The notes under the pieces: model-generated | What the model was told of the DNA's origin: nothing | The model's input: only the letters and a program-made list of their open reading frames with translations | Databases searched by the model: none | Part shown: one piece after another, positions 1-15,153 of the stretch | Numbering within the stretch: the first letter of the stretch is position 1 | How the letters are laid out: every line of letters begins with the position of its first letter | Origin: Ochrobactrum sp. RH2CCR150 | GTDB lineage: Bacteria > Pseudomonadota > Alphaproteobacteria > Rhizobiales > Rhizobiaceae | DNA length: 64,000 nucleotides | Assembly (NCBI GenBank): GCA_014138095.1 | Contig: JACGXE010000003.1 | Span: forward strand, 434,001-498,000 | Reading direction: 5' to 3' | Made by a program: the position numbers and the translations under genes

Positions 1-2354
1 TCATTCAGTTCAGCCAGCGTAAAGGCGGGCAGGATCTGGCGCATTCCTTCATGGATTCGCAGCCGGAAGGCACGGTTATTTCCGATTCTCGCGGCCAGAT
101 TGTTTATGCCAATCAGGCCTATGCCAATATGACCGGCGTCGCCAATGCCGATGGCATCCGCTCGCTCGACAATGTGCTGACGGCTGAACCTGCGGCATCC
201 GACGCGATTTATCGTCTGACCAATGCAGTGCGCGATGGTCTCTCCGGGCAGGAAGAAGTGCGGTTGTCTGGCGGACTGTCCCGCGAGGCGCACGGTTCTT
301 TGGCACCCGTCTGGTATCGGATCAAGTCTCGCCCCATTGAAGCCGGGCAGGACTACAAAGGCCCGCTCGTCGCATGGCAGATTGCCGATATTTCCGAGGA
401 ACGCGCCGAGCAGGAGCGTTTCTTTCAGGAACTGCAGGAAGCGATCAATCATCTCGATCATGCACCGGCTGGTTTCTTTTCTGCCGATCCGTCGGGACGC
501 ATCATCTATCTCAACGCCACTTTGGCGGAATGGCTGGGCGTCGATCTGACAGCCTTCACACCGGGTTCGCTGACGCTCAATGAGATCGTCGCGGGCAGCG
601 GCATGGCGCTCATCAAGGCCGTCAAGGCGGAGCCCGGCACCAGCCGCAACACGGTGATCGATCTCGATCTTATCAAGCGCAATGGTCAAAGCCTGGCCGT
701 GCGCTTTTATCATCGTGTGCAGGCGGCCCGTGATGGCACGCGCGGAACGAGCCGTACTATCGTTCTGGATCGCGCAGAGGGCGATGATTCCTCGGCAGCA
801 CTGCGTTCGGCAGAAGTGCGGTTCACGCGCTTCTTCAATTCCGCTCCAATGGCAATTGCTGCCGTCGATGCGCAGGGCCACACTCTGCGTACCAATGCGC
901 GCTTCCTCGACATTTTCTCGTCCGTCGTGGATCGCGATTCCGTTGATCGCCGCGTGAAGCTGGAAAATGTCGTGCATGAGCGTGACCGCGAAGTGTTCAC
1001 CAAGGCGCTTGCGGCGGCATTTGCCGGGCAGGCGAGTATCTCGCCGGTCGACACCGTTCTTCCGGGTAACGAGGAACGGCATATCCGTTTCTATATGAGC
1101 CCGGTCAGCGATATGGGTGGGGAGTCGTCGGAAGAGGCGGCAATCATTTCCGCCGTTGAAACGACGGAACAGAAAGCGCTCGAAAACCAGATGGCGCAGA
1201 GCCAGAAGATGCAGGCTGTTGGTCAGCTTGCCGGTGGCATTGCCCACGACTTCAACAACGTTCTGACGGCGATCATTATGTCGTCGGACCTGTTGTTGAC
1301 CAATCATCGCGCATCCGATCCGTCTTTCCCGGACATCATGAACATCAAGCAGAACGCAAACCGCGCAGCTTCGCTTGTGCGCCAGCTGCTTGCGTTCTCG
1401 CGTCGCCAGACGCTGCGTCCGGAAGTGCTGGATTTGACCGATGTTCTGGCCGATCTGCGCATGCTGCTTGCACGCCTCGTCGGCAAGGATATCGAACTGA
1501 AAATCGATCATGGCCGCGATCTTTGGCCGGTTAAAGCCGATCTTGGCCAGTTCGAACAGGTTGCCGTCAATCTTGCAGTCAATGCGCGTGATGCAATGCC
1601 TGAGGGCGGTGCAATCACGCTGCGGACCCGCAACGTGCCTGTCCACGAAGCGGCAAAACTCACCTATCGTGATCTTCCGGAAGCCGATTATGTTGTCTTC
1701 GAGGTCGAAGACACCGGCACCGGTATTCCAGCCGATGTGCTTGAGAAGATTTTTGAGCCGTTCTTCACCACGAAGGAAGTCGGCAAGGGCACCGGGCTCG
1801 GCCTGTCGATGGTCTATGGCATCATCAAACAGACCGGAGGCTTCATCTATTGCGATTCCGAAGTCGGCAAGGGAACGACGTTCAAGATATTCCTGCCGCG
1901 CCTGATCGTGGAGAAGAGCGCTGAGGATGTGCCTGTCGCCGTCAAGGAAAAGAAGGTCGAAAAGGCGACCGACCTTTCCGGTTCCGCTACGGTTCTGCTC
2001 GTGGAAGACGAAGACGCTGTGCGTATGGGCGGGGTGCGCGCACTCCAGTCGCGCGGCTATACGGTGCATGAAGCGGCTTCCGGCGTAGAGGCTCTGGAAA
2101 TCATGGAAGAACTTGGCGGCGAGGTGGATATCGTCGTGTCCGACGTGGTCATGCCCGAAATGGACGGCCCGACGCTGTTGCGCGAGTTGCGCAAGACCTA
2201 TCCGGATATCAAATTCGTGTTCGTATCCGGTTATGCTGAAGACGCTTTTGCACGCAACCTGCCTGCGGACGCCAAGTTCGGATTCCTGCCAAAGCCGTTC
2301 TCGCTCAAGCAGTTGGCGACCACTGTGAAGGAAATGCTGGAGAAGCAGGACTGA
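1..2354 (+). CDS. cckA: Hybrid sensor histidine kinase CckA (5' end outside window)
   Basis: Cell-cycle hybrid kinase that in alphaproteobacteria feeds phosphate through ChpT to CtrA. The frame is open to the left edge (codons readable from base 3), so the true start and probably the N-terminal membrane segments lie outside the window; the ATG at 51 is internal. Counting from that ATG, PAS-like sensory domains fill about residues 1-370, the HisKA box GGIAHDFNN has its phospho-acceptor at H399, an HATPase domain with the GTGLGLS G-box follows, and a C-terminal receiver domain has the phospho-acceptor at D698 ([12 protein letters not shown]). The HisKA-HATPase-REC order with PAS domains is typical of CckA. 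The flavoprotein gene follows 33 bp downstream on the same strand. Confidence 0.93.
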
Positions 2355-2387
2355 TGAATTTCACGTGCACTTCCCGGCAAGACAGTC

Positions 2388-3584
2388 ATGTGTAGCGGCC
2401 GCATTGCGGTTTTCGGCGGCGGTCCATCTGGCCTGATTGCAGCCGAAAGACTGTCGACGCTTGGATATGCTGTAACCGTCTATGAGCAGATGCCGACTGT
2501 TGGACGGAAATTTCTACTGGCTGGAAAGTCAGGTCTTAACATCACCCATGCGGAAGATTTTTCGACCTTCGTGAACCGCTTTGGCGCAGCCAACGCCCGA
2601 CTTCTGCCAATGCTGCAAAAGTTCGGGCCGCAGGATCTGCGTAATTGGGCAGACGCGCTTGGCGCTGAAACCTTCGTCGGGTCGTCGGATCGCGTCTTTC
2701 CCAAGGCGATGAAGGCTTCCCCGCTGTTGCGCGCGTGGGGACATCGGCTGGAAGCGCAAGGCGTGCGCGTTCTGACACGGCATCGCTGGGTCGGTTTTGA
2801 TGGCGACATGCCGATCGTAGAGACTGCCACTGGCCGCGAAACCGTTGAGTGCGATGCAGCGCTTTTCGCTTTCGGCGGCGCGAGCTGGCCGAAACTCGGT
2901 TCGAACGGTGCCTGGGTGCCGCATTTTACCGAAAAAGGCATTACAATTGCGCCGTTGCGCTCCGCAAATTGCGGCTTCGATGTCGCATGGAGTGAGCATC
3001 TGGCAAGCCGTTTTGCAGGCGAACCAGTCAAATCCGTCACCATCACGAGCGCCGCCGGAACGACGCAGGGCGAATTCGTGATCACCAAGACGGGTGTTGA
3101 GGGTAGTCTTGTTTATGCCCACGCGGCGGCGTTACGCGATGCACTGACGGCAGAGGGGCAAGCCAATCTGGTGCTTGATCTTGCGCCGGGGCGCAGCTTC
3201 GAGCGTCTCAAAGCTGATCTGGAACGGCAGGACAGCAAGCTCAGTTTCGGGAATCTATTGCGTAAGGGCGCTGGCCTGACGGGTGTGAAGGCTGCACTTG
3301 TCACGGAATTTCTGCGCGATAAAAATCCTGACAAGCTGGCACATGCCATCAAGGCACTACACGTTCCTCTATTGCGCACTCGTCCGATAGAGGAAGTTAT
3401 CTCTTCTGCTGGTGGTATTGTCTGGGATGAGATTGATCAGAATCAGATGCTGCGGAAATTGCCCGGCATCTTTGTTGCGGGTGAAATGGTCGATTGGGAA
3501 GCGCCGACTGGTGGCTATCTTCTGACGGCGTGTTTCGCAATGGGTGTTGCCGCTGCCGAGGGTATCGACGGCTGGCTACAATAA
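2388..3584 (+). CDS. HI0933-family FAD/NAD(P)-dependent oxidoreductase
   Basis: A 398-aa flavoprotein of the HI0933/BaiN-like family (TIGR03862-type); its physiological substrate is unknown. An N-terminal dinucleotide-binding motif GGGPSG lies at residues 9-14. The family signature [16 protein letters not shown] lies near residues 45-60, and the C-terminal FAD-contact region [18 protein letters not shown] near 364-381 is well conserved. No signal peptide or membrane segment, so cytosolic. It follows cckA by 33 bp and could be co-transcribed with it. The ATG has only a weak upstream Shine-Dalgarno sequence, but no better in-frame start is visible. It ends 19 bp before the convergent tRNA-Arg gene. 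Confidence 0.85.
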
Positions 3585-3602
3585 CCCTGAGATATTGGAA
3601 AA

Positions 3603-3679
3603 TGGCGCACCCGACAGGATTCGAACCTGTGACCTCTGCCTTCGGAGGGCAGCACTCTATCCAGCTGAGCTACGGGTGC
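3603..3679 (-). tRNA. tRNA-Arg (anticodon CCG)
   Basis: Read on the minus strand, a full 77-nt cloverleaf is present. The acceptor stem is GCACCCG/CGGGTGC, followed by discriminator G and an encoded CCA. The D arm is AGCTCAGCTGGAT-like. The anticodon stem is CTGCC/GGCAG with loop CTCCGAA, giving anticodon CCG, which reads the arginine codon CGG. The T arm contains GGTTCGAATCC. It converges with the flavoprotein gene. I saw no duplicated 3' end that would mark an integrated element. Confidence 0.96.
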
Positions 3680-3806
3680 AAACTGGATGGCTGAAAGCCT
3701 GATCTGCCGCGTTTCTAGCTGAACCACGCAATTGCATCAATGACTTATTTTCATAAACCAGACTAAATCTGACGCGGGCTGCGTGAATGAGTAACGCGGC
3801 GTAAGA

Positions 3807-3832
3807 CTCCTGGCCGAAAGGTCAGCCAGGAG
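3807..3832 (-). terminator. Hairpin downstream of the MFS gene
   Basis: Perfect 8-bp stem CTCCTGGC / GCCAGGAG with a 10-nt loop, 18 bp past the MFS stop codon. A T-run (GGTTTTT) lies on the plus-strand side, so as a canonical rho-independent terminator it reads better left to right. It probably serves as a transcript end for the MFS gene or as a barrier in both directions. Confidence 0.5.
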
Positions 3833-3849
3833 CTTGGTTTTTGAAATAC

Positions 3850-5154
3850 CTATGCGGAATGCTTGGCCAGTTCGCCTCTGCCATTTCGCGCCCGTAGTCC
3901 GATCAAAACAACGATGGCAAGGGCGCATAGAAGAGCCAGAACGTAGAACCCGGCATCGTGATTGCCGACGGCAACATCGGCCCAATTCTTGATCTGCGGC
4001 GCGAAGAATGCACCGAGATTGCCGATGGAAACGATGAAGGCGATACCGCTTGCCGCGCCAACGCCACCGAGATAGCGCGTAGGGAGGCTCCAGAAAACCG
4101 GCTGCGACGCCGTTAGCCCCGGCACCGCAATACATGCCGCAATCAGCATGATCCATGCGTTTCCAGTCAGGCCGATCATCCCCAAGGCGATGGTACCAGC
4201 GGTCACCATCAGCGCGCAGATCAGCCGATGTTTGCCGGTATTATCCGCAAGCACGGTGAAATAGCGCGTTGCGATCACCGAACATAGCCACGGAAGGCTC
4301 AAAAGCGTGCCGATGAAGAGGTTCATCTCGCCGCCAGATGCCGCATCGGCGAATCGTGACGGGAAGTAGAACGTCAGCGGTGCGGTGCCAATCTGCAGGA
4401 AGAAATAGATCGCGATGAACGCCCACACTCTGGCGTCTTTCAGAACAGAAAGCGCTGAATGTTTGTGGGTGTTTTCCTTGGCAGCTTCTTCCGCTCTCAC
4501 GACAGTGGTCAGCGCGTCTCTTTCTTCAGGCGTGAGCCAGCTTGCCTTTTCAGGCCGGTCGGTCAGATAGAAGAGTGCGATGATGCCCATGAGCGAGGCG
4601 CCTAGACCTTCGACAAGGAACATCCATTGCCAGTTTGTCAGCCCGAAAACACCGTGATGGGTGAGAAGCCAACCGGATAAGGGGCTGCCCAACACCAGTG
4701 CCAAAGGCACGCCGAGATAAAACAGACCCGTCGCCTTCGCGCGTTCCTTCGCCGGAAACCAGTAGGTCAGATAAAGCAGAACGCCGGGATAGAAACCGGC
4801 TTCGCAAACACCCAGCAGAAAACGCAGCGAATAGAACACGGTTTCCGTATGGGCGAACATCATCGCCGCCGATACAAGACCCCAGCTGATCATGATACGG
4901 CTAAGCCAGAGCCGCGCCCCGACTTTGTGCAGGATAATGTTGCTCGGCACTTCAAACAGAGCGTAACCGATGAAGAATATGCCCGCGCCAAAGGCGTAGG
5001 CGGCGTCGCTTAAGCCAGTATCGAGCTGGAATTCCTTTTTGGCAAAGCCGATATTTGCGCGATCCAGAAAGGCCATGATCAGCATCAGCGCCAGAAATGG
5101 CAGCAGTCGCCGCGTGGCTTTCCGAACAGCAGTATCAATATGTGCAGCACTCAT
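3850..5154 (-). CDS. MFS transporter, anion:cation symporter (ACS) type
   Basis: A 434-aa inner-membrane permease with about 12 hydrophobic segments. The early FLDRANIGFAKK stretch and the loop YWFPAKERAKATG are hallmarks of the ACS family, which takes up organic acid anions such as tartrate, phthalate or hexuronates. The exact substrate cannot be read. The chosen ATG (5154) gives the protein start MSAAHIDTAV and is preceded by AGGAGGA about 10 nt upstream. An ATG 24 bp earlier (5178) would place that Shine-Dalgarno sequence inside the coding region and is less likely. The gene stands alone, with no regulator or catabolic enzymes beside it. Confidence 0.85.
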   Translation of the reverse strand: MSAAHIDTAVRKATRRLLPFLALMLIMAFLDRANIGFAKKEFQLDTGLSDAAYAFGAGIFFIGYALFEVPSNIILHKVGARLWLSRIMISWGLVSAAMMFAHTETVFYSLRFLLGVCEAGFYPGVLLYLTYWFPAKERAKATGLFYLGVPLALVLGSPLSGWLLTHHGVFGLTNWQWMFLVEGLGASLMGIIALFYLTDRPEKASWLTPEERDALTTVVRAEEAAKENTHKHSALSVLKDARVWAFIAIYFFLQIGTAPLTFYFPSRFADAASGGEMNLFIGTLLSLPWLCSVIATRYFTVLADNTGKHRLICALMVTAGTIALGMIGLTGNAWIMLIAACIAVPGLTASQPVFWSLPTRYLGGVGAASGIAFIVSIGNLGAFFAPQIKNWADVAVGNHDAGFYVLALLCALAIVVLIGLRARNGRGELAKHSA

Positions 5155-5766
5155 CCCGATGTGTCTCCTCCTCATCACCTCAAGAATGCGCGCAAGCTAA
5201 TGGAAACCCGTATATGGATAAAGACTGCAAATATAAATACATGGAGACGTAGGTGGGGTTTTGAGGGGTATAATTTCGGTTATGGACCGCTGCAGAAGCA
5301 TCGCAACATGAGATAATTTATATACAAATATATGGTAGCCCTAATGAATTTATTGATATTATAAACAAATATTACCGATTGTATTAAAGCGTTGATTTGA
5401 TGATCCGCGATTCGCGGAAATCGCCTGTTTCGGCCATCGTTTGACCTTCCTCGGCCTTCGGAATTACCAACGGAGAAGTCATCACGTTAAACAATTATCC
5501 GCCTGATCGGGCGGATTTAAAGTTAGTAAAACGCCAGTTTTCGCTCAAAAAAGTACAAAATAGGGGTTTTCTAGAAAAATTGGACGCGGAGACAAGTTTC
5601 AGGATTCTACGCTAACGACAGAACCAACCCGCACGGCTATCGTCAATCATCCAATAAAGAACATCCAAAACCAATGATTATGGTGTCCACATCTCTGTGG
5701 CTGCTGGGGTGTCTCTTTGCGTTTGAAGAATTGACATAAACCGGATGAGTATCGCGGGAGGTTTTT
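5155..5766. other. AT-rich intergenic region between the MFS gene and the polysaccharide operon
   Basis: About 610 bp with no convincing coding sequence, clearly richer in AT than its flanks. It must hold the MFS promoter (minus) and the polysaccharide operon promoter (plus). Two small inverted repeats are visible: TCCGCG-att-CGCGGA at 5404-5418 and ATCCGCC-N6-GGCGGAT at 5497-5516. A TTGACA at about 5734 lies close to the GTG start but has no good -10 partner. I cannot assign a specific promoter. Confidence 0.5.
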
Positions 5767-6780
5767 GTGAGCATCATCTTCAAATCTTCGAGTATATCCG
5801 CAGAGCGCATGTCAACGCGTCGTATCCTTGTTGCTGGCGGAGCAGGGTTCCTCGGTTCGCATCTTTGTGAGCGGCTCCTGCGCGAAGGCAATTTCGTTAT
5901 CTGCGTCGATAATTTTTCCACGGGTCGTATTGAGAACCTGCGCAATCTCCTGCGCTATGACACATTCAGCTTCGTTCGCCACGATATTGTCCATCCGCTC
6001 GATCTGCCGGTTGATGAAATCTACAATTTGGCTTGCCCGGCTTCGCCGCCGCATTATCAGGCTGATCCGGTTCACACCATGAAGACGAGCGTAATCGGCT
6101 CGCTCAATCTGCTGGAACTTGCCGCCCATTATCAGGCACGGATTTTCCAGGCTTCGACATCCGAAGTCTATGGCGATCCCCAGGTGCATCCGCAGCCTGA
6201 ATCCTATTGGGGCAACGTAAATTCCTTCGGCCCGCGCTCCTGCTACGACGAAGGCAAGCGGTCGGCTGAAACGCTGTTTTATGATTTCCATAAGCAATAC
6301 GGCGTCGATATTCGCATTGTGCGCATCTTCAACACCTACGGTCCGCGCATGCGCCCAGATGACGGCCGCGTCGTATCCAACTTCATCGTACAAGCCCTTA
6401 AGGGCGACGATATCACCATCTATGGCGATGGCTCCCAGACGCGCTCCTTCTGCTATGTCGATGATCTTATTGAAGGTTTCTGCCGCCTGATGGGCAGCCA
6501 GCCAGCCATCCACACGCCAGTCAATCTCGGTAATCCAGGTGAGTTCACAGTGCGTGAACTGGCTGAACAGATCATCGCTCTGACCGGTTCGTCATCGCGA
6601 ATTGTGCAACGCCCGTTGCCAACCGATGACCCGCGCCAGCGTCGCCCGGACATCACGGTTGCCAAGCGCGAGCTTGGCTGGGAACCAGCGATTGCCCTGA
6701 CAGAAGGTCTGAAGTCGACGATCTCCTATTTTGAGCGCCAGTTGGTCCGACCTTCGGGAGAGCTTGTTGAGGTGGCATGA
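5767..6780 (+). CDS. UDP-glucuronate decarboxylase (UDP-xylose synthase)
   Basis: Extended short-chain dehydrogenase/reductase that converts UDP-glucuronate to UDP-xylose using tightly bound NAD+. The Rossmann motif GGAGFLGSH is near residues 23-31. The active-site block is YDEGKR (YxxxK), and the family-diagnostic segments [21 protein letters not shown] and YWGNVN separate it from GalE and RmlB. At 337 aa it matches bacterial UXS. I take GTG at 5767 as start because GGGAGG sits 4 nt upstream; the ATG 42 bp further in has a weaker site. First gene of a seven-gene operon; its stop overlaps the galE start (ATGA). Ugd, three genes downstream, makes its substrate. Confidence 0.9.
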
Positions 6781-7766
6781 TGACCCAGCAAAACGTACTC
6801 GTTGCCGGCGGTGCTGGCTTTATCGGCAGCCATACGGCCAAGCTTTTGGCCGGGCACGGTTTTTCGCCGGTCGTCTATGACAATCTGTCGACCGGTCATA
6901 AGGCTTCGGTACGTTGGGGCGAATTCGTCGAAGGCGATATTCTCTCGCAGGACAAGCTCATCGCAGCGATTGAGACCTACGATCCTGTTGCAGTCATCCA
7001 CTTTGCGGCTTCGGCCTATGTCGGGGAGTCCGTCACGGACCCAGCCAAGTATTACCGGAACAATGTCTGCGGCACGCAATCGCTTCTGGAAGCGTGCCGT
7101 TTGACGGGCGGTCGTCCGGTCATCTTCTCGTCTAGCTGCGCCACCTATGGCATTCCCGATCGCTTGCCGATCCGCGAAGGCGAGGTGCAGCGCCCAATCA
7201 ATCCTTATGGGCGCACCAAGCTGATCGCAGAACATATGCTTGCCGATTATTCGGCAGCCTATGGCATGCGTTATGCGGCGCTGCGTTATTTCAACGCTTG
7301 CGGCGCCGATATCGACGGGGAACTGGGCGAAAAGCACGACCCTGAAACCCATCTTATCCCGCGCGCCATGCTGGCTGCCGCTGGAAACGCCGATGTTCTT
7401 GAAGTCTTCGGCGATGATTACGACACGCCGGACGGCACCTGCATTCGCGATTATATCCATGTTGTCGATCTGGCGCGGGCTCACGTGCTGGCCGTCGAAC
7501 ATCTGGTGAATGGCGGTGGTAATCTGGTTCTCAATCTTGGAACCGGGCGCGGCACGTCGATCAAGGAAATCGTCGATGCCATCGGTCGTGTTACAGGACG
7601 TCAGGTGCCGGTTGCGATGCGCGCGCGTCGAGCAGGCGATCCGCCAGCACTTTATGCCGATCCGGCGGAAGCTGCAGCAAAGCTTGGCTTCACAACGCTC
7701 CATTCTGATCTCGATACGATTATTCGTACTGCTGCTCCATTTTTTGGTCTGGAGGCGCGGTCATGA
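6777..7766 (+). CDS. galE: UDP-glucose 4-epimerase
   Basis: Interconverts UDP-glucose and UDP-galactose in the cytosol. The 329-aa protein shows GGAGFIGSH near residues 10-18, the SSS(C)ATYG block around 119-126, the catalytic YGRTK (YxxxK) motif near 143-147, and a conserved [11 protein letters not shown] segment. It overlaps the upstream gene by 4 bp and the downstream synthase by 4 bp, so all three are probably translationally coupled. Context suggests it supplies UDP-galactose for the polysaccharide made by this operon rather than for galactose catabolism, since no galK or galT is nearby. Confidence 0.93.
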
Positions 7767-9613
7767 AGACGCCCCGGATTCCTCTGGTTGCAGACAATAA
7801 GGAACCATTGCTGACGCCCATTTTCACTGGCCGCAAACGGGTGGAATATATTGTCGGCATCATTCTCTGGGCTATGGCCATCGCCTATTTCTGGCAGTGG
7901 TGGCTGATCAGCGCCGAACATATCCATCCGGTTGGTTCTGTTCTGGTTACTGCGCTTTTGGCCTGGATAACCATCCTGCCTCTCTATTTCATCCTGATTT
8001 TCTTCCATGCTGCGCGCCCGACCGGTCCGTTGCGACTGCCGGAAGGAAGCCGCGTGGCCATGGTGGTCACCAAGGCACCGTCTGAGCCGTTTGAAGTTGT
8101 ATCGGAAACACTGCTGGCCATGCTGGCCCAGAATGTCCCGCATGACACATGGCTTGCCGACGAAGATCCGTCACCATCAACGCTGGCATGGTGTCGTGAG
8201 CATGGCGTGTTCGTTTCGACGCGCAAGGGACGTGCGGATTATCACCGGCAAACCTGGCCACGCCGTACACGGTGCAAGGAAGGCAATCTGGCGTTCTTTT
8301 ACGATCATTACGGCTATGAGCGCTATGACTTCGTATCGCAGCTCGATGCGGATCATGTGCCGGAACCGGACTATCTTTACAACATTCTGCGTCCATTCGC
8401 AGACCCGGCAATCGGCTATGTTTCAGCGCCAAGCATCTGTGATCGCAATGCACATGAAAGCTGGTCGGCACGCGGACGTCTCTATGTCGAGGCGAGTATG
8501 CATGGCTCGTTGCAGGCGGGTTACAATGGCGGCTTTGCGCCTGTGTGCATCGGTTCGCATTATGCGGTGCGAACGGCTGCGCTGAAGGAAATCGGCGGCC
8601 TTGGTCCCGAACTTGCCGAGGATCATTCGACGACCCTGTTCATGAATGCGCATGGCTGGCGCGGCGTTCACGCACTAGATGCGATTGCCCATGGCGATGG
8701 TCCGCGAACCTTTGGCGATCTCGTGACGCAGGAATTTCAGTGGTCACGCAGTCTGGTCATGATCCTTTTGCAGTACACGCCGAAGCTGATCAGCCGTTTG
8801 CCGCTGCGCCTGAAGTTCCAGTTTCTGTTTTCACAGATCTGGTATCCGCTCTATGCCTTCTTCCTGGCTATGACCTTCCTGCTGCCGATAATTATCCTTG
8901 CCTATGGCGATAATTTTGTCAGCGTCACATATCCGGATTTCCTGCTTCACTTCATGCCGCAGTCGCTGATGATTTTGTTCCTCGCGTTCTGGTGGCGGTC
9001 GAGCAAGACGTTCCGTCCTGTCGATGGCAAGATTTTCAGCTGGGAAGCGATGCTGTTTCTGCTGGCGCGTTGGCCCTGGGTATTGGCCGGAACCTTTGCA
9101 GCATTTCGTGACTGGGCAACAGGTTCATTCGTCGACTTCCGCGTTACGCCGAAGGGTTCTTCTGAAGTCGATCCGGTGCCGTTTCGAGTGCTTGCACCCT
9201 ATGCCTTCATCTCCATGCTGTCGCTTGTTCCGGTTCTGTTGGTCGACGACGCTGATCAAACACGCGGCTTCTACGTCTTCGCCATCATCAATGCGGGCTT
9301 CTACCTGTTTCTGATCGGCATGATCATTGTGCAACATGCACGCGAGAATAAGGTGCGGATGCAAAGCCGCTTCTATCAGCCGGTCCTCGCGAGCAGCTTT
9401 ATGGCGCTTGTCATGGTCACAGGTTTTACGACCGCTGAACGGGGCCGCGACGGCATTGAAGCACTGACCTGGGGTACGTTGAGCTTTTCAGTATTCGACG
9501 ACCAATTCTCGGTAGCCGGAGCAGGCGTCGGCGGACGCGACACTCACAAGACAATATTCAACCCTCGTTGGCGCGAGAACCCGTTCAACGGGTCGAGCAA
9601 CGAAAGCAAATAG
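7763..9613 (+). CDS. Membrane GT2 glycan synthase, cellulose-synthase-like
   Basis: Processive-type family 2 glycosyltransferase of 616 aa. Two hydrophobic segments lie near residues 28-80. A cytosolic GT-A domain follows, with the donor-binding DAD at D195/D197, a later acidic AED (around residue 288) in the position of the catalytic TED, and then QEFQW at 323-327 where cellulose synthases have QxxRW. Several C-terminal membrane helices lie between about 355 and 570. It lacks a PilZ domain, so direct c-di-GMP control is not apparent. Product linkage and sugar are unknown; the operon suggests a beta-glycan made from UDP-GlcA, UDP-xylose, UDP-galactose or UDP-glucose. Overlaps galE by 4 bp. 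Confidence 0.85.
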   Translation: MKTPRIPLVADNKEPLLTPIFTGRKRVEYIVGIILWAMAIAYFWQWWLISAEHIHPVGSVLVTALLAWITILPLYFILIFFHAARPTGPLRLPEGSRVAMVVTKAPSEPFEVVSETLLAMLAQNVPHDTWLADEDPSPSTLAWCREHGVFVSTRKGRADYHRQTWPRRTRCKEGNLAFFYDHYGYERYDFVSQLDADHVPEPDYLYNILRPFADPAIGYVSAPSICDRNAHESWSARGRLYVEASMHGSLQAGYNGGFAPVCIGSHYAVRTAALKEIGGLGPELAEDHSTTLFMNAHGWRGVHALDAIAHGDGPRTFGDLVTQEFQWSRSLVMILLQYTPKLISRLPLRLKFQFLFSQIWYPLYAFFLAMTFLLPIIILAYGDNFVSVTYPDFLLHFMPQSLMILFLAFWWRSSKTFRPVDGKIFSWEAMLFLLARWPWVLAGTFAAFRDWATGSFVDFRVTPKGSSEVDPVPFRVLAPYAFISMLSLVPVLLVDDADQTRGFYVFAIINAGFYLFLIGMIIVQHARENKVRMQSRFYQPVLASSFMALVMVTGFTTAERGRDGIEALTWGTLSFSVFDDQFSVAGAGVGGRDTHKTIFNPRWRENPFNGSSNESK

Positions 9614-9632
9614 CGGAGAGGCGGGACTTGTT

Positions 9633-11069
9633 ATGAAGATCGCTGTCATTGGAACGGGTTATGTCGGTTTGGTCAGCGGCACCTGCTTCGCCGCCTGGGG
9701 GCATGAGGTTGTCTGCGTGGATAAGGACGCGCAGAAGATTTCCGGACTGGAACGCGGCGTCGTGCCCATTTACGAACCGGGGCTCGATGAACTGGTCGAG
9801 CGCAATTTTGCCTTTGGCCGTCTCAGCTTCACCTGCAATCTGGCGGACGCCGTCAACGGCGCGCAGCTCGTGCTCATCGCTGTCGGTACGCCGGCACGCG
9901 CCGGACATGGCGATGCCGACCTGTCATTCGTCTATATGGCGGCGCGTGAACTGGCTCCGCTGATCGATGACAATACGGTTGTCGTCGTGAAGTCCACCGT
10001 TCCGGTCGGCACCGGCGATGTGGTGCAGAAGATTATCGGTTCGGTGCGCAAGCCCGGCACATTTTCCGTCGCATCCAACCCTGAATTCCTGCGCGAAGGC
10101 GTTGCCATTCGCGATTTTCTGGAACCGGACCGCGTGGTGATCGGCGTTGAAGACGAGCGGGCGCGCAAGCTTCTCGTCGAGCTTTACAGCGCGGCGCTTG
10201 AGGCAAACCAGACGCCCATCGTGGTGACGCAACGCCGCACATCCGAGCTGATCAAATATGCGGCGAATGCCTTCCTCGCTACCAAAATCACCTTCATCAA
10301 CGAACTCGCCGATCTCTGCGAGGAAGTGGGCAGCGACGTTACCGATCTGGCTCTGGGCATGGGGCTGGACAAGCGGATCGGCACCAGCTTTCTGAATGCA
10401 GGTCCGGGCTATGGCGGCTCCTGCTTCCCGAAGGATACGATTGCCCTGCTGCGCACTGCGCAGGACCATGGTGTGGCCCTGCGTCTGGTTGAGGAAACCG
10501 TGACCGCGAATGAAGCGCGCAAGCGTCGCATGGCACTGAAGGTCATGGATGCGCTCGGCGGAGATATTGAGGGCCGGACGATTGCTGTTCTTGGACTGAC
10601 CTTTAAGCCGGATACAGACGATATGCGCGATGCGCCGTCCATTCCACTGATCGAAACCTTACAGCGTTTTGGTGCCCGTATACGGGCGCACGACCCGGTT
10701 GGGATCGAAAATGCGCGCCGCATCCTGACCGATGTGGAGTTTTTCGAGAACCCCTATGACTGCGTCGCCGATGCAGACGCTGCTGTGATCGTGACCGAAT
10801 GGGACAGCATTCGCAAACTCGACCTCGCTCGCATGAAGCGCCTGATGCGCCGGGCGGTTCTCGTTGATCTCAGAAATGTTTTTTCCCGAACCGCGGCCGA
10901 AAGACTTGGATTTCGTGTTTCGACCATCGGTCGCCCCGTTCATCTGCGGCAGGAAATAAAACAAATAAACCCGCTGCCGCAGGCGCGCGTCCGCCCACCA
11001 CAAGAACCCCAGGCGGGCGCGCGCAATCTCAAAGTTGTGGGAGGATCAAATGAAACTATCGATGTTTGA
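9633..11069 (+). CDS. ugd: UDP-glucose 6-dehydrogenase
   Basis: Oxidises UDP-glucose to UDP-glucuronate with 2 NAD+. N-terminal Rossmann motif GTGYVGLVSG at residues 7-16. The catalytic cysteine is C264 in GYGGSCFPKD. The central helix contains the conserved KYAANAFLATK, and the C-terminal nucleotide-binding domain carries GLTFKPDTDDMRDAPS. Length 478 aa, with about 40 extra, probably disordered, Gln/Pro-rich residues at the C terminus. A GGAGAGGCGGGA-type Shine-Dalgarno region lies 5' of ATG 9633. Together with the first gene it forms the path UDP-Glc to UDP-GlcA to UDP-Xyl. Its 3' end overlaps the next gene by 20 bp. Confidence 0.95.
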   Translation: MKIAVIGTGYVGLVSGTCFAAWGHEVVCVDKDAQKISGLERGVVPIYEPGLDELVERNFAFGRLSFTCNLADAVNGAQLVLIAVGTPARAGHGDADLSFVYMAARELAPLIDDNTVVVVKSTVPVGTGDVVQKIIGSVRKPGTFSVASNPEFLREGVAIRDFLEPDRVVIGVEDERARKLLVELYSAALEANQTPIVVTQRRTSELIKYAANAFLATKITFINELADLCEEVGSDVTDLALGMGLDKRIGTSFLNAGPGYGGSCFPKDTIALLRTAQDHGVALRLVEETVTANEARKRRMALKVMDALGGDIEGRTIAVLGLTFKPDTDDMRDAPSIPLIETLQRFGARIRAHDPVGIENARRILTDVEFFENPYDCVADADAAVIVTEWDSIRKLDLARMKRLMRRAVLVDLRNVFSRTAAERLGFRVSTIGRPVHLRQEIKQINPLPQARVRPPQEPQAGARNLKVVGGSNETIDV

Positions 11070-11622
11070 TACCGGCCGCTCTTTCAGCCGCCGAGGTACG
11101 ATGGCTCTGGCATCTCTTGCTCTGATGGCTGGCCTGACGGGGCTTGCCGCAGGCACTGCCGACGCCGCCACCATGCCCGGTGACAACACACCTGCCGGCA
11201 CGCGTGTGATGACGCCGTTTGAAATCTACACGCTTTACCGTGACAAGAACTGGCAATGGGCCGACGGCTCAGGTCAGATGCAGATCACGGATCGTCGTTT
11301 CACCGCGCGCGTCGATGGCGAAAAGGGCAAAGCCTGGGCCGAAGGTCGCTGGATGATCACCAAGACCGGGCTGATGTGCCTGAAGGCTGATTGGCATACC
11401 GATCAGGGCAAGTTTCCGGTCAAGACATGCTTTTCGCACCGTATTGGTGATGGCGTTGTCTATCAAAAGCGCGAGCCCAATGGCGTTTGGTACGTCTTCC
11501 GTCATGCCGACGGTCGGGCGGACGACGAAGCGCGCAAGCTCGTATCCATCAGTCTTTCAACGGAACAAAAGAATGGCGCGCTGAAAGCGGAAGCAACAAC
11601 TCCGCAATCGCCAAAACAATAG
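11050..11622 (+). CDS. Secreted DUF995 protein (first copy)
   Basis: A 190-aa exported protein with the DUF995 fold, restricted largely to rhizobial relatives; biochemical role unknown. The start is ATG 11050, preceded by GGGAGG, rather than the GTG 15 bp upstream. The N terminus has RR followed by a hydrophobic run (ALASLALMAGLTGLAAGT) and a likely cleavage site at ADAA, so Sec or possibly Tat export. The mature domain carries the conserved pattern K-x-WxW-x-DG, KGKAWAEGRW, a pair of cysteines (CLKADW and TCFSHR) and VYQKR...WYVFRH. The gene overlaps ugd. A second copy is encoded two genes downstream; the two resemble each other along their whole mature length. Confidence 0.8.
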   Translation: MKLSMFDTGRSFSRRGTMALASLALMAGLTGLAAGTADAATMPGDNTPAGTRVMTPFEIYTLYRDKNWQWADGSGQMQITDRRFTARVDGEKGKAWAEGRWMITKTGLMCLKADWHTDQGKFPVKTCFSHRIGDGVVYQKREPNGVWYVFRHADGRADDEARKLVSISLSTEQKNGALKAEATTPQSPKQ

Positions 11623-11635
11623 AAGGGAGGGGGCC

Positions 11636-12580
11636 ATGAAAACCCCTTATAAGCTAGCCTCTATTTTGCTCTGCGGAGCGCTTGTCTCCACTGCCGTTTA
11701 TGCCGCGAGCGGCGTTTCCGGTGCGACAGTGGATACGCGCAATCTGTTCCACGACAAGCGCCCGGTCATCACGCCGAATTCGATCAAGCCCGGCGCTTAC
11801 GATCCACACGGGGATTATACAAACGATCCCAATTCCAAGATCGAACATCTGTTCTTGCCTTGGGAAGATGTGGATCTGACGAGCCTCGCCCAGGCGGATT
11901 CCTATGCGCAGGAACGCGGTCGCGAACTGCTGATCACTATCGAACCCTGGTCTTGGGCACGTGACTGGCGCGTCGCGCCCGATGCGCTTTTGAGCGGGAT
12001 CGAAAACGGTCGCTACGACTCCAACATGGGCGCCGTCTGTTCGGCAGCGTCTAAACTGAAAAGCCCAGTGACCATTCGCTGGGCACAGGAAATGGACGAC
12101 AAGTCGGGGCAGTTCACCTGGTCCTACTGGTCGCCGCAGGGATACATCGCCGCTTACCAGCATGTGGTCAAGGTTTGCAAAAAGACTTTGCCAAACGCCA
12201 AATATATGTGGTCCCCAAAGGGAGAAGAGGGGCTTCAGGCCTACTATCCCGGTGACGCTTTCGTGGATGTGATCGGCCTTTCGGTGTTCGGCTACGAGCC
12301 TTACGACAAGCTGGAGGTTGGTCGCCCCACGAGTTTCGTCGAACGCGCAAAGCCGGGTTATGACCGGGTCGTGGCCTTCAACAAGCCGATCGTGATTGCG
12401 GAACTCGGTTATGAAGGCAGCGACGATTATGTCCGAGCATGGGCTGCAGAGGCCAACAAGCCTCAACCGGAATTCCCGGCGCTGACAGCCGTCGTCTATT
12501 TCAACGACCGCGAAGTTTATCCTTGGCCAAGGGGTGTCGGACGGCCTGACTGGCGCGTTGCAAACCATCCTTTGGATTAA
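11636..12580 (+). CDS. Secreted GH26-like glycoside hydrolase
   Basis: A 314-aa protein with an N-terminal signal sequence (hydrophobic residues 6-22, AYA/ASG cleavage region) and a TIM-barrel glycosidase domain. E152 in RWAQEMD fits the acid/base of GH26 (usually W/RxHEMN) and E256 in VIAELGY fits the nucleophile; the spacing of 104 residues is close to that of known GH26 mannanases. Conserved aromatic-rich blocks EPWSWARDW and SYWSPQGYIAAYQHV support a substrate cleft. Likely role: periplasmic trimming, length control or release of the glycan made by the GT2 synthase in this operon. Substrate (mannan, glucan, xylan) not deducible. A GGGAGG Shine-Dalgarno sequence lies 5' of ATG. Confidence 0.75.
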   Translation: MKTPYKLASILLCGALVSTAVYAASGVSGATVDTRNLFHDKRPVITPNSIKPGAYDPHGDYTNDPNSKIEHLFLPWEDVDLTSLAQADSYAQERGRELLITIEPWSWARDWRVAPDALLSGIENGRYDSNMGAVCSAASKLKSPVTIRWAQEMDDKSGQFTWSYWSPQGYIAAYQHVVKVCKKTLPNAKYMWSPKGEEGLQAYYPGDAFVDVIGLSVFGYEPYDKLEVGRPTSFVERAKPGYDRVVAFNKPIVIAELGYEGSDDYVRAWAAEANKPQPEFPALTAVVYFNDREVYPWPRGVGRPDWRVANHPLD

Positions 12581-12628
12581 AACTGAACGTCTAACCCCGA
12601 CCGTTAAACGATTGGACAGGAAAGCAAA

Positions 12629-13153
12629 ATGTTTTCGATCCGTTTCACAGCCGTGAGTGCGGCGCTGTCCGTACTCCTCGTGGCAGGTGTAGCCGAAGCT
12701 GCACCAAAGCCAAAAACCGACGATGCAACGGCCAAGCTGGCCGCTGCAGCATCACCAATGTCCGCACAGGCGCTAGAGGCGATCTATGCGGGCAAGACAT
12801 GGAAATGGAAGGATGGCGGCGGCTTCTTTTCAGCCGACGGTCACAAATTCACCGCGTGGTCTCAAAAAGGTAAAGCCTGGTCCTATGGTGAAGGGCGCTG
12901 GTACGCGACTGACGGCGGAAAGCTCTGCATGCAGGCTTACTGGCGCAACAAGGCGAGCGGCGGTGGCGGCGATATAACCTGCTTCCAGCACCGCGAGAAG
13001 GCAGGCGTGATCTACCAGAAGCGCTCTATTGGCGGTGACTGGTACGTATTCCGGAATAACCCTCCGAAACCGACCGATGAAGCGCAAAAGATTGTGCGGG
13101 GCGATCTGGTCGGCAAGGGATTGGACCGCATGAAAGCGATGGCCAAAAAATAA
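12629..13153 (+). CDS. Secreted DUF995 protein (second copy)
   Basis: A 174-aa exported protein with a signal peptide (residues 1-25, cleavage near EAA/AP) and one DUF995 domain. It shares the first copy's key pattern: GKTWKWKDG near residue 54, KGKAW...GEGRW, two cysteines (LCMQAYW and TCFQHR), IYQKR and WYVFRN. Last gene of the polysaccharide operon, 48 bp after the glycosidase, with GACAGGAAAG as ribosome binding site. Function unknown; the pairing with a glycan synthase and a secreted glycosidase suggests polysaccharide export, binding or attachment at the cell surface. Confidence 0.78.
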   Translation: MFSIRFTAVSAALSVLLVAGVAEAAPKPKTDDATAKLAAAASPMSAQALEAIYAGKTWKWKDGGGFFSADGHKFTAWSQKGKAWSYGEGRWYATDGGKLCMQAYWRNKASGGGGDITCFQHREKAGVIYQKRSIGGDWYVFRNNPPKPTDEAQKIVRGDLVGKGLDRMKAMAKK

Positions 13154-13288: not shown

Positions 13289-13594
13289 TTAGTCTCGCAT
13301 GAAGCAGCGCGACTTTTGACCAAAGCCGCTCGGCGTGCAGACATAGGAATTGCCGCCGAAATATTGCGAAGCCGAGACTTTAATCACCTTACCCATGGGG
13401 TTTTTATTGTAACGGACTTCGTTATTGACGCGATACTTGACGAGATAAACGGAACGCGTGTCATTCTTGGGCTTGTGGTTGTCTTTTGCCTGAGCGTTTG
13501 CGGACAGGCACAAAGAAGCTGCTATACCGATTGCCGCCGTTGCTACCCATTTTACGCTTTCACGGCGTACAGCATTGAAAAATACATTGTTCAT
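13289..13594 (-). CDS. Small secreted hypothetical protein
   Basis: A 101-aa protein on the minus strand with a strong AGGAGG Shine-Dalgarno sequence 7 nt before its ATG. Signal peptide over residues 1-35 (AAIGIAASLCLSANAQA, cleavage after AQA). The short mature part of about 65 residues is basic, contains two cysteines (YVCTPS and SRCFMRD) that could form a disulfide, and has no family I recognise. It stands convergent to the polysaccharide operon and is preceded by an AT-rich region. Good signal peptide and ribosome site make it a probable real gene; function unknown. Confidence 0.65.
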   Translation of the reverse strand: MNNVFFNAVRRESVKWVATAAIGIAASLCLSANAQAKDNHKPKNDTRSVYLVKYRVNNEVRYNKNPMGKVIKVSASQYFGGNSYVCTPSGFGQKSRCFMRD

Positions 13595-14004: not shown

Positions 14005-15153
14005 GTGACGTCCGACAATGACAAGACCGGGCAAGATTTGAATTCGAAATTTGTCGAACGTCGACAGTCGGTGCGCGTGCCGGTTTCGCCATTGGGCGAA
14101 ACTACTGGCAGCGTTGAGCTGTTGGAGCCTCTGGTTTTCACCACAGAGAGATTTGAGCCATCCGATCAGTTTTCCGCCTGGCAACAGCACATGGCGCCGT
14201 TGCTGGACTTGCGTTTACCAGATGGAACTCGCCCCAGTGAGGGCTTTATAGCCTGTCAAACCGTGTGGGACCTGGGTGGCATGCTCCTCATCCAGCAGAC
14301 CGCACCAGCTTTCAGCTATGAACGCCCGAAGGAAAAGGTTCGTTTCAGCTCGATCGATCATTGGCAGATCAGCTTCTTGCGCAGCGGTCATAGCTGGACA
14401 GGCGTTGACGGTCGTGTTGCAGAAAACGAGCCGGGCATGATCGATGTACGCTCGCTCGGCTATCCGTTCCGGGGGCGAGCGATTGCTTCGGAATCTGTGT
14501 CCCTGATCATTCCCGTTGATCAGTTTGCCGGTCGCGGCGGCATGCCCGAAGCCAGCAACAATGTCACTCTGGGCGGTTACCGCGCCAAGTTGTTGATCGA
14601 TTTCGTTACAAGCCTTGAGGATGGTCTCGGTCGCGCTACCAATGAAGACTTGCCGGGTTTGCGAGACAGCCTGCGGCAGATCATATTCGATACGATTGCG
14701 CCGCTCGTAAAGAAAATCGATGTCAGCGAGCAGATTTCCCAATTGGGATTGATGACCAAGGCGCGGCGTTTCATTCAGAAAAATCTCATGTCGCGGGATT
14801 TGACGCCGGAAGCTTTAAGCCGTGAGCTGGCCGTTTCACGCACGCACTTGTACCAGCTTTTTGAAGGATCAGGCGGCGTCCTGAATTACATTCGGCAAAG
14901 GCGTTTGTTTGGAGCCCATGCAATACTGGCAGACGCTAGCGAGAATCGAAGGGTGTCGGATGTTGCAACGGCTTTCGGTTTTGATTCCGCCGCCAATTTT
15001 ACCCGGGCGTTCACGCAGCAGTTTGGCTACAGCCCAAGCAGCGTGCGCAAGGCATCTTCAAGAACAGATGCGGTCGCGGATACGCAGCAGGATCAGAACC
15101 AGCCAGCGACGTTCGAAACATTGTTACGAACGCTCGCGATGTTCGACGCATGA
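14005..15153 (+). CDS. AraC-family transcriptional regulator
   Basis: A 382-aa DNA-binding regulator. The N-terminal about 230 residues resemble the AraC-binding-like (cupin-type) domain that senses a ligand or partner. The C-terminal two helix-turn-helix module spans about residues 255-350, with AVSRTHLYQLFEGSGGV as the first recognition region and the family signature DVATAFGFDSAANFTRAFTQQFGYSPS. The C-terminal tail of about 30 residues is polar. Start is GTG 14005 with AGGGA 7 nt upstream; the protein start MTSDNDKTGQ is hydrophilic. It is a monocistronic gene next to the polysaccharide operon, but no sequence evidence ties it to that operon's control. Confidence 0.85.
   Translation: MTSDNDKTGQDLNSKFVERRQSVRVPVSPLGETTGSVELLEPLVFTTERFEPSDQFSAWQQHMAPLLDLRLPDGTRPSEGFIACQTVWDLGGMLLIQQTAPAFSYERPKEKVRFSSIDHWQISFLRSGHSWTGVDGRVAENEPGMIDVRSLGYPFRGRAIASESVSLIIPVDQFAGRGGMPEASNNVTLGGYRAKLLIDFVTSLEDGLGRATNEDLPGLRDSLRQIIFDTIAPLVKKIDVSEQISQLGLMTKARRFIQKNLMSRDLTPEALSRELAVSRTHLYQLFEGSGGVLNYIRQRRLFGAHAILADASENRRVSDVATAFGFDSAANFTRAFTQQFGYSPSSVRKASSRTDAVADTQQDQNQPATFETLLRTLAMFDA

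Follow-up and report, generated by a model that had tools for sequence, protein, structure and literature searches.

The window analysed in this study is a 64,000-nucleotide stretch of DNA from Ochrobactrum sp. RH2CCR150, the genome of which amounts to 5.54 Mb in 40 contigs. Between positions 5767 and 13153, the window carries seven open reading frames on the + strand, all of which were confirmed at these positions in an ORF check. The first two encode a predicted UDP-glucuronate decarboxylase (UDP-xylose synthase; uxs1, 5767-6780), which matches PF16363 and PF01370, and a GalE-type UDP-xylose/UDP-glucose 4-epimerase (uxe, 6777-7766), which scores 400.9 bits against the galE model TIGR01179 and exceeds its cut-off. 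They are followed by apsS (7763-9613), which encodes a membrane GT2 polysaccharide synthase (PF13632, E = 2.6e-17), and ugd (9633-11069), which encodes a UDP-glucose 6-dehydrogenase with three domains (PF03721, PF00984, and PF03720). The last three products are predicted to be exported: apsH1 (11035-11622, for which the ATG at 11050 is a likelier start than 11035) and apsH2 (12629-13153) encode DUF995 proteins (PF06191; 4.8e-53 and 179.1 bits, and 1.8e-54 and 183.7 bits, respectively, with a cut-off of 20), and apsE (11636-12580), which lies between them, encodes a GH26-like glycosidase (PF02156; 3.6e-6, 27.0 bits with a cut-off of 20.2). The uxs1/uxe and uxe/apsS junctions are 4-base overlaps, ugd also overlaps apsH1, and the remaining intergenic gaps in the run are 19, 13, and 48 bases.

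Three further features flank the run. A small, convergently encoded secreted protein (13289-13594, - strand) carries the C-terminal motif CTPSGFG, and cuxR (14005-15153, + strand) encodes a predicted AraC-type, c-di-GMP-responsive activator. Upstream of uxs1, a tandem direct repeat at 5582-5619 (+ strand) is a candidate CuxR operator. An earlier sequence-only reading had described a dedicated seven-gene polysaccharide operon with a GT2 synthase, two DUF995 proteins, and a GH26-like protein, three of whose products are exported; the ORFs, the Pfam matches, and the signal-like N-termini of all three proteins bear this out. Chance can be ruled out, because the known families are intact and the gene order is shared with other genera. 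The closest named relatives of ApsE among the best 80 of 396 relatives, both at 99% identity, are those of a Rhizobiales isolate and of Brucella haematophila, which we take to be an Ochrobactrum-type species.

In S. meliloti, the APS operon has the order uxs1-uxe-apsS-apsH1-apsE-apsH2 and is controlled by c-di-GMP and CuxR, according to excerpts from two papers (PMC7902896, PMC9495663); APS itself is an arabinose-containing, Congo-red-binding polysaccharide, the production of which is raised by c-di-GMP via CuxR (PMC7902896). The window proteins were compared gene by gene, as best tblastn pieces, with the stretch of S. meliloti pSymB in question, where the pSymB record is unannotated. Identities were 73% for uxs, 69% for uxe, 68% for apsS, 57% for apsE, and 45% for CuxR; the DUF995 matches were 47% over 119 residues at the apsH1 position and 43% over 129 residues at the apsH2 position, and the small ORF has a counterpart of 56% identity over 32 residues. 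The published gene order is thus found in the window, with one inserted gene, ugd. Gene content, gene order, homology, and the RxxxR motif conserved in CuxR can be read directly in the sequence, and the region is very probably orthologous to the APS operon of S. meliloti together with CuxR, and would make a c-di-GMP-activated, arabinose-containing surface polysaccharide. The earlier reading had recognised no well-described system here and had named a match to a characterised exopolysaccharide cluster as grounds for abandoning that view; the APS operon is such a match, gene for gene. Two observations call for restraint in carrying the S. meliloti phenotype over. The DUF995 proteins, at only 43-47% identity, count against full equivalence, and R. 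favelukesii carries an APS cluster yet did not form wrinkled colonies in the study excerpted (PMC7902896), which counts against simple transfer of the APS phenotype. Searching the literature for the aps gene names and for the locus tags from S. meliloti returned only PMC6024577 and PMC7902896.

We infer c-di-GMP control, the sugar route, and the polymer of the window operon from the work on S. meliloti. There, Uxs forms UDP-Xyl from UDP-GlcA by decarboxylation, and UDP-Xyl and UDP-Ara are converted into one another by Uxe (PMC6024577, citing Gu 2011). In the window, Ugd would make UDP-GlcA, Uxs would convert it to UDP-xylose by decarboxylation, and Uxe would epimerise UDP-xylose to UDP-arabinose; since Ugd is present, the operon would span the whole route from UDP-Glc to UDP-Ara. 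ApsS, in the inner membrane, would polymerise and extrude the chain, and the end product would be a Congo-red-binding surface polysaccharide containing arabinose. For the later steps we offer little more than guesses, i.e., that ApsE, outside the inner membrane, trims or releases the polymer and that ApsH1 and ApsH2 bind it or pass it on. The predicted polymer sugar is arabinose, reached by 4-epimerisation of UDP-xylose, and the xylose- or uronate-containing glycan proposed earlier gives way to this prediction. The genome contains two more ugd-like genes elsewhere, at 48% identity. We infer that the copy in the operon frees the pathway from the expression of housekeeping ugd, and the extra ugd could also mean that GlcA enters the polymer.

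Three motifs were located in ApsS, DADH at position 195, AEDH at 285, and QEFQW at 323. A long ApsS match was obtained in 79 of the best 80 of 396 loci; all three motifs, QEFQW included, are the same in every one of these, with or without ugd. The score against the CelA model is 57.9 bits, far under the cut-off of 699.1. In ApsE, Glu152 and Glu256 are invariant in 12 of 12 diverse sequences. Glu152 is aligned to the RWAYE segment of the β-1,3-xylanase XYL4, which is its only support, the alignment with endoglucanase H being shifted there, and Glu256 is aligned to IIIAEF of endoglucanase H. The aligned residues in the PDB entries are presumably the catalytic ones; Glu152 and Glu256 are named as candidate catalytic residues of the predicted glycosidase, which combines the GH26 profile match with the two glutamates.

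The best PDB match of the protein encoded at 14005-15153 is entry 5nla (E = 8.7e-93 over residues 17-358), which on our reading is CuxR, since the sequence of the entry and the pSymB gene agree when aligned. The RxxxR motif, formed by R20 and R24, is present in the window protein and invariant in four of four aligned CuxR orthologues. CuxR binds c-di-GMP via RxxxR (excerpt of PMC9045272) and is entered in a table of PMC10519070 with 6.7 μM and a cupin domain. At high c-di-GMP, the window CuxR would bind c-di-GMP via RxxxR and activate transcription from the uxs promoter. The statement that no PilZ protein is encoded here stood for the ten proteins scanned, but the c-di-GMP receptor would be the neighbouring CuxR; a missing PilZ domain does not mean missing c-di-GMP control, because a CuxR orthologue adjoins the operon.

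The candidate operator was found by footprinting over 79 uxs upstream regions, those of the window and S. meliloti included, in which common words occur far above the level of single-base shuffles, with relatedness contributing to the excess. Two words are exactly 36 bases apart in 40 of the 79 regions, with further conservation between them. A promoter matrix built from 37 unique cores was run over the best 80 of 396 loci; in 76 of them, 37 of which played no part in building it, its best hit in the locus falls directly before uxs. The four misses comprise L102 and L142, in which uxs is unmatched, L122, in which the contig starts just before uxs, and L126, which is a true miss; the hit in L118 is weak (1.7 bits). 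In S. meliloti, the matrix score is 27.3 at this position, compared with -23.1 at the next best place. The window element at 5582-5619 reads GGAC-N5-G-NN-AA followed by GGAT-N5-G-NN-AA with a period of 20 bp, and then CGAC. For this GGAY-N5-G-NN-AA direct repeat, half-site identity is 0.525 at an offset of 20 and 0.16-0.34 at 17 other offsets. The strict pattern, which was partly drawn from the window sequence itself, fits 18 of the 79 regions, or 27 if the first half is relaxed, and occurs at a single site in the 5.54-Mb genome, with none for a reversed-pattern control. An AraC-type dimer would use such a direct-repeat layout. The tandem repeat upstream of uxs is thus probably the CuxR operator, on which a CuxR dimer would most likely sit, and a concrete candidate operator is offered for this AraC-type c-di-GMP receptor. 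In L076, L097, L101, and L108, the element is present and a CuxR-like match is absent within the stretch examined; L126 has no element. L094, a locus with two CuxR-like genes, carries another strong copy of the putative operator at position 1650 (42.4 bits).

The 80 named aps loci are the best 80 of 396 ApsE relatives found, and a gene was counted as present in them if tblastn, with queries from the window or from S. meliloti, gave a match at E ≤ 1e-4. Among these best 80, apsS and apsE are matched in 80 each, uxe in 79, uxs in 78, and a CuxR-like gene in 73, and uxs is followed by uxe in 78. A ugd gene is matched in 56 of the 80, and the 24 loci without it include all 8 loci of Sinorhizobium, Ensifer, and Neorhizobium. 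The range of the APS operon is thereby widened to numerous genera of the order, and in the majority of loci the operon has a ugd of its own. Several loci have peculiarities of their own. In L007 (Shinella sp. HZN7 pShin-11; 1351-6991), a Tn3-family transposon interrupts apsS, and the remaining aps operon follows. Extra ApsE-like matches of 30-43% identity lie on the opposite strand in L116, L117, L124, L128, L129, and L142 (downstream), in L077 (upstream), and in L148. L121, from a record titled Bacillus subtilis SK6B4, is a complete aps locus with a small ORF like that of Pseudochrobactrum loci, and the assembly is probably contaminated or mislabelled. L089, from Paracoccus methylarcula, which we take to belong to the Rhodobacterales, outside the order, is an aps locus with ugd, one DUF995 gene, and a CuxR-like gene; horizontal transfer is a possible origin.

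In Pfam, the sole match of the DUF995 proteins is a family without a known function, and NCBIfam gave none; a literature search on DUF995 turned up a single paper, which is unrelated. Sequence comparison gave no convincing solved relative, the one hit being at chance level (E = 0.18). The AlphaFold2 model of residues 25-174 of ApsH2 (pLDDT 94.3) was compared with lipocalin-like barrels for a shared fold, and a Foldseek search of the PDB yielded no confident match (none at E ≤ 0.001). The earlier reading had linked DUF995 to GT2 and GH26-like genes and asked for a check of their co-occurrence. Among 397 genomes of the order, 28 have a DUF995 match, which scores above 90 bits in 20 of them and 20-54 bits in the other 8; ApsE was found in 22 at E < 1e-90 and more weakly (4e-35 to 7e-14) in 4. 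All 20 genomes with strong DUF995 are among the 22 with ApsE: both occur in 20, DUF995 alone in 0, ApsE alone in 2, and neither in 375 (Fisher p = 1e-31, uncorrected for kinship; the 20 genomes span 9 genera). Most of the loci behind the ApsE profile had been located by way of DUF995, and at most five ApsE candidates were scored per genome. The aps locus itself contains DUF995 in 18 of the 20, namely the window and 17 genomes for which stretches were fetched. The two exceptions, G098 and G224, belong to one genus and have uxs-uxe-apsS-ugd-apsE elsewhere in the genome (L148 and L150). The suggested link holds in these genomes, and the opposite case, DUF995 genes lying mostly far from glycan synthases, was rejected on these counts. 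For the order as sampled, this links DUF995, a family with no assigned role, to a single characterised system.

The association is not a strict rule in either direction. At least one DUF995 gene is matched in 78 of the best 80 of 396 aps loci (two in 68, one in 9, and three in 1). In L119, L140, G357, and G372, uxs, uxe, apsS, and apsE are kept and DUF995 was not found in the locus, the last two being the genomes with ApsE alone; DUF995 is therefore not essential to every version of the operon. In the eight genomes with weak DUF995 matches, the fetched stretches contain no aps genes, except for the DUF995 match itself in three. Sampled across the class, 385 genomes yielded five with DUF995 but no ApsE match at E ≤ 1e-10: G724, in which a DUF995 match of 82.6 bits lies beside an apparent calcium-binding-repeat protein, and four with DUF995 at 20-29 bits. 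These weak and class-wide matches run against a strict DUF995-aps rule.

The product of 13289-13594 is an exported protein of about 100 amino acids ending in YVCTPSGFGQKSRCF, and in other genera it resembles a lipoprotein; it matches no Pfam or NCBIfam family. Of the best 80 of 396 aps loci, 76 have a match to the small ORF, several of them via the C-terminal motif only. In the 397 genomes, a profile made from aps loci only, with at most 12 candidates scored per genome, gave 18 genomes matched at E ≤ 1e-5, all of them ApsE-carrying aps genomes, including the two in which DUF995 was not found in the locus, each having its match inside the aps locus. With the ApsE and small-ORF profiles built in these ways, distant relatives outside aps loci may be missed. 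In some genomes (e.g., G023, G281, G149, and G316), the small ORF lies beyond uxs rather than after apsH2, and it is unmatched in four aps genomes (G098, G224, G250, and G264). Outside the aps genomes there is one poor match (E = 0.007), which contains a stop, and the next match in the source genome itself has only E = 0.7. This small conserved secreted protein is named here as a possible aps partner.

The presence of ugd raises the question of the product. If ApsS used the products of Ugd and Uxs directly, the ugd-bearing operon would make a different polymer, e.g., a glucuronate- or xylose-containing heteroglycan. The distribution of ugd (56 of the best 80 of 396 loci, and 0 of the 8 in Sinorhizobium, Ensifer, and Neorhizobium) fits this, as do the two other ugd-like genes in the genome, given which UDP-Xyl synthesis does not strictly depend on a dedicated copy. 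We nevertheless regard it as unlikely, since the operon has one synthase, ApsS is 68% identical to that of S. meliloti with its three motifs constant in 79 of 79 of these loci whether ugd is there or not, and uxe is kept in 79 of the 80. The epimerase could instead act mainly as GalE, supplying UDP-galactose for a galactose-rich glycan; it does score above the galE cut-off, and S. meliloti Uxe is reportedly bifunctional and able to replace ExoB. The position of uxe after uxs in 78 of the best 80 of 396 loci fits UDP-Xyl/UDP-Ara, however, and makes a galactose-rich product very unlikely.

That the operon represents an altogether new kind of polysaccharide secretion, without kinship to a described cluster, is scarcely tenable. 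This idea was rejected on the orthology to the APS operon: the gene-for-gene match, with CuxR, refutes it as to identity. What speaks for it is that no Wzx, Wzy, PilZ, BcsB, or BcsC domain was found among the ten proteins scanned (Pfam, E ≤ 0.001), i.e., neither the flippase and polymerase of Wzx/Wzy-dependent export nor the PilZ-bearing BcsA and adjoining BcsB of a Bcs complex, and that DUF995 has no counterpart of known function in Pfam or NCBIfam. In a non-systematic inspection by eye, no obvious outer-membrane exporter was seen among the ORFs of six variant loci. With an APS operon as the preferred reading, a wider proposal is that the module, as a dedicated system, exceeds the six genes in print by the tandem CuxR operator, the recurrent ugd, two aps-dedicated DUF995 barrels, and the small CTPSGFG protein. 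Together these would let a synthase-only glycan be exported or anchored through small periplasmic barrels, in place of any known outer-membrane exporter; we consider this doubtful.

Compared with known systems, ApsS resembles BcsA in being a membrane GT2 protein with DxD and xED motifs (profile match, E = 8.1e-15), whereas no PilZ domain was found in it and it carries QEFQW where BcsA aligns QRGRW, which might reflect a pentose donor. The likeness to the S. meliloti APS operon includes all six genes in the same order, an adjoining, putatively c-di-GMP-responsive AraC activator, the small ORF in convergent orientation, and a tandem element that can be recognised upstream. The window differs in having ugd between apsS and apsH1, and in that its cuxR lies downstream on the same strand, whereas that of S. 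meliloti is divergent and upstream of uxs1. The seven-gene order including ugd is identical in Phyllobacterium zundukense (NZ_CP104972) and Ochrobactrum quorumnocens (NZ_CP022605, an unannotated record), and ugd is found at the same place also in Shinella; in Phyllobacterium, in contrast to the window, cuxR is divergent and upstream. The system is therefore one already known, to which the window adds ugd within the operon and a few testable details.
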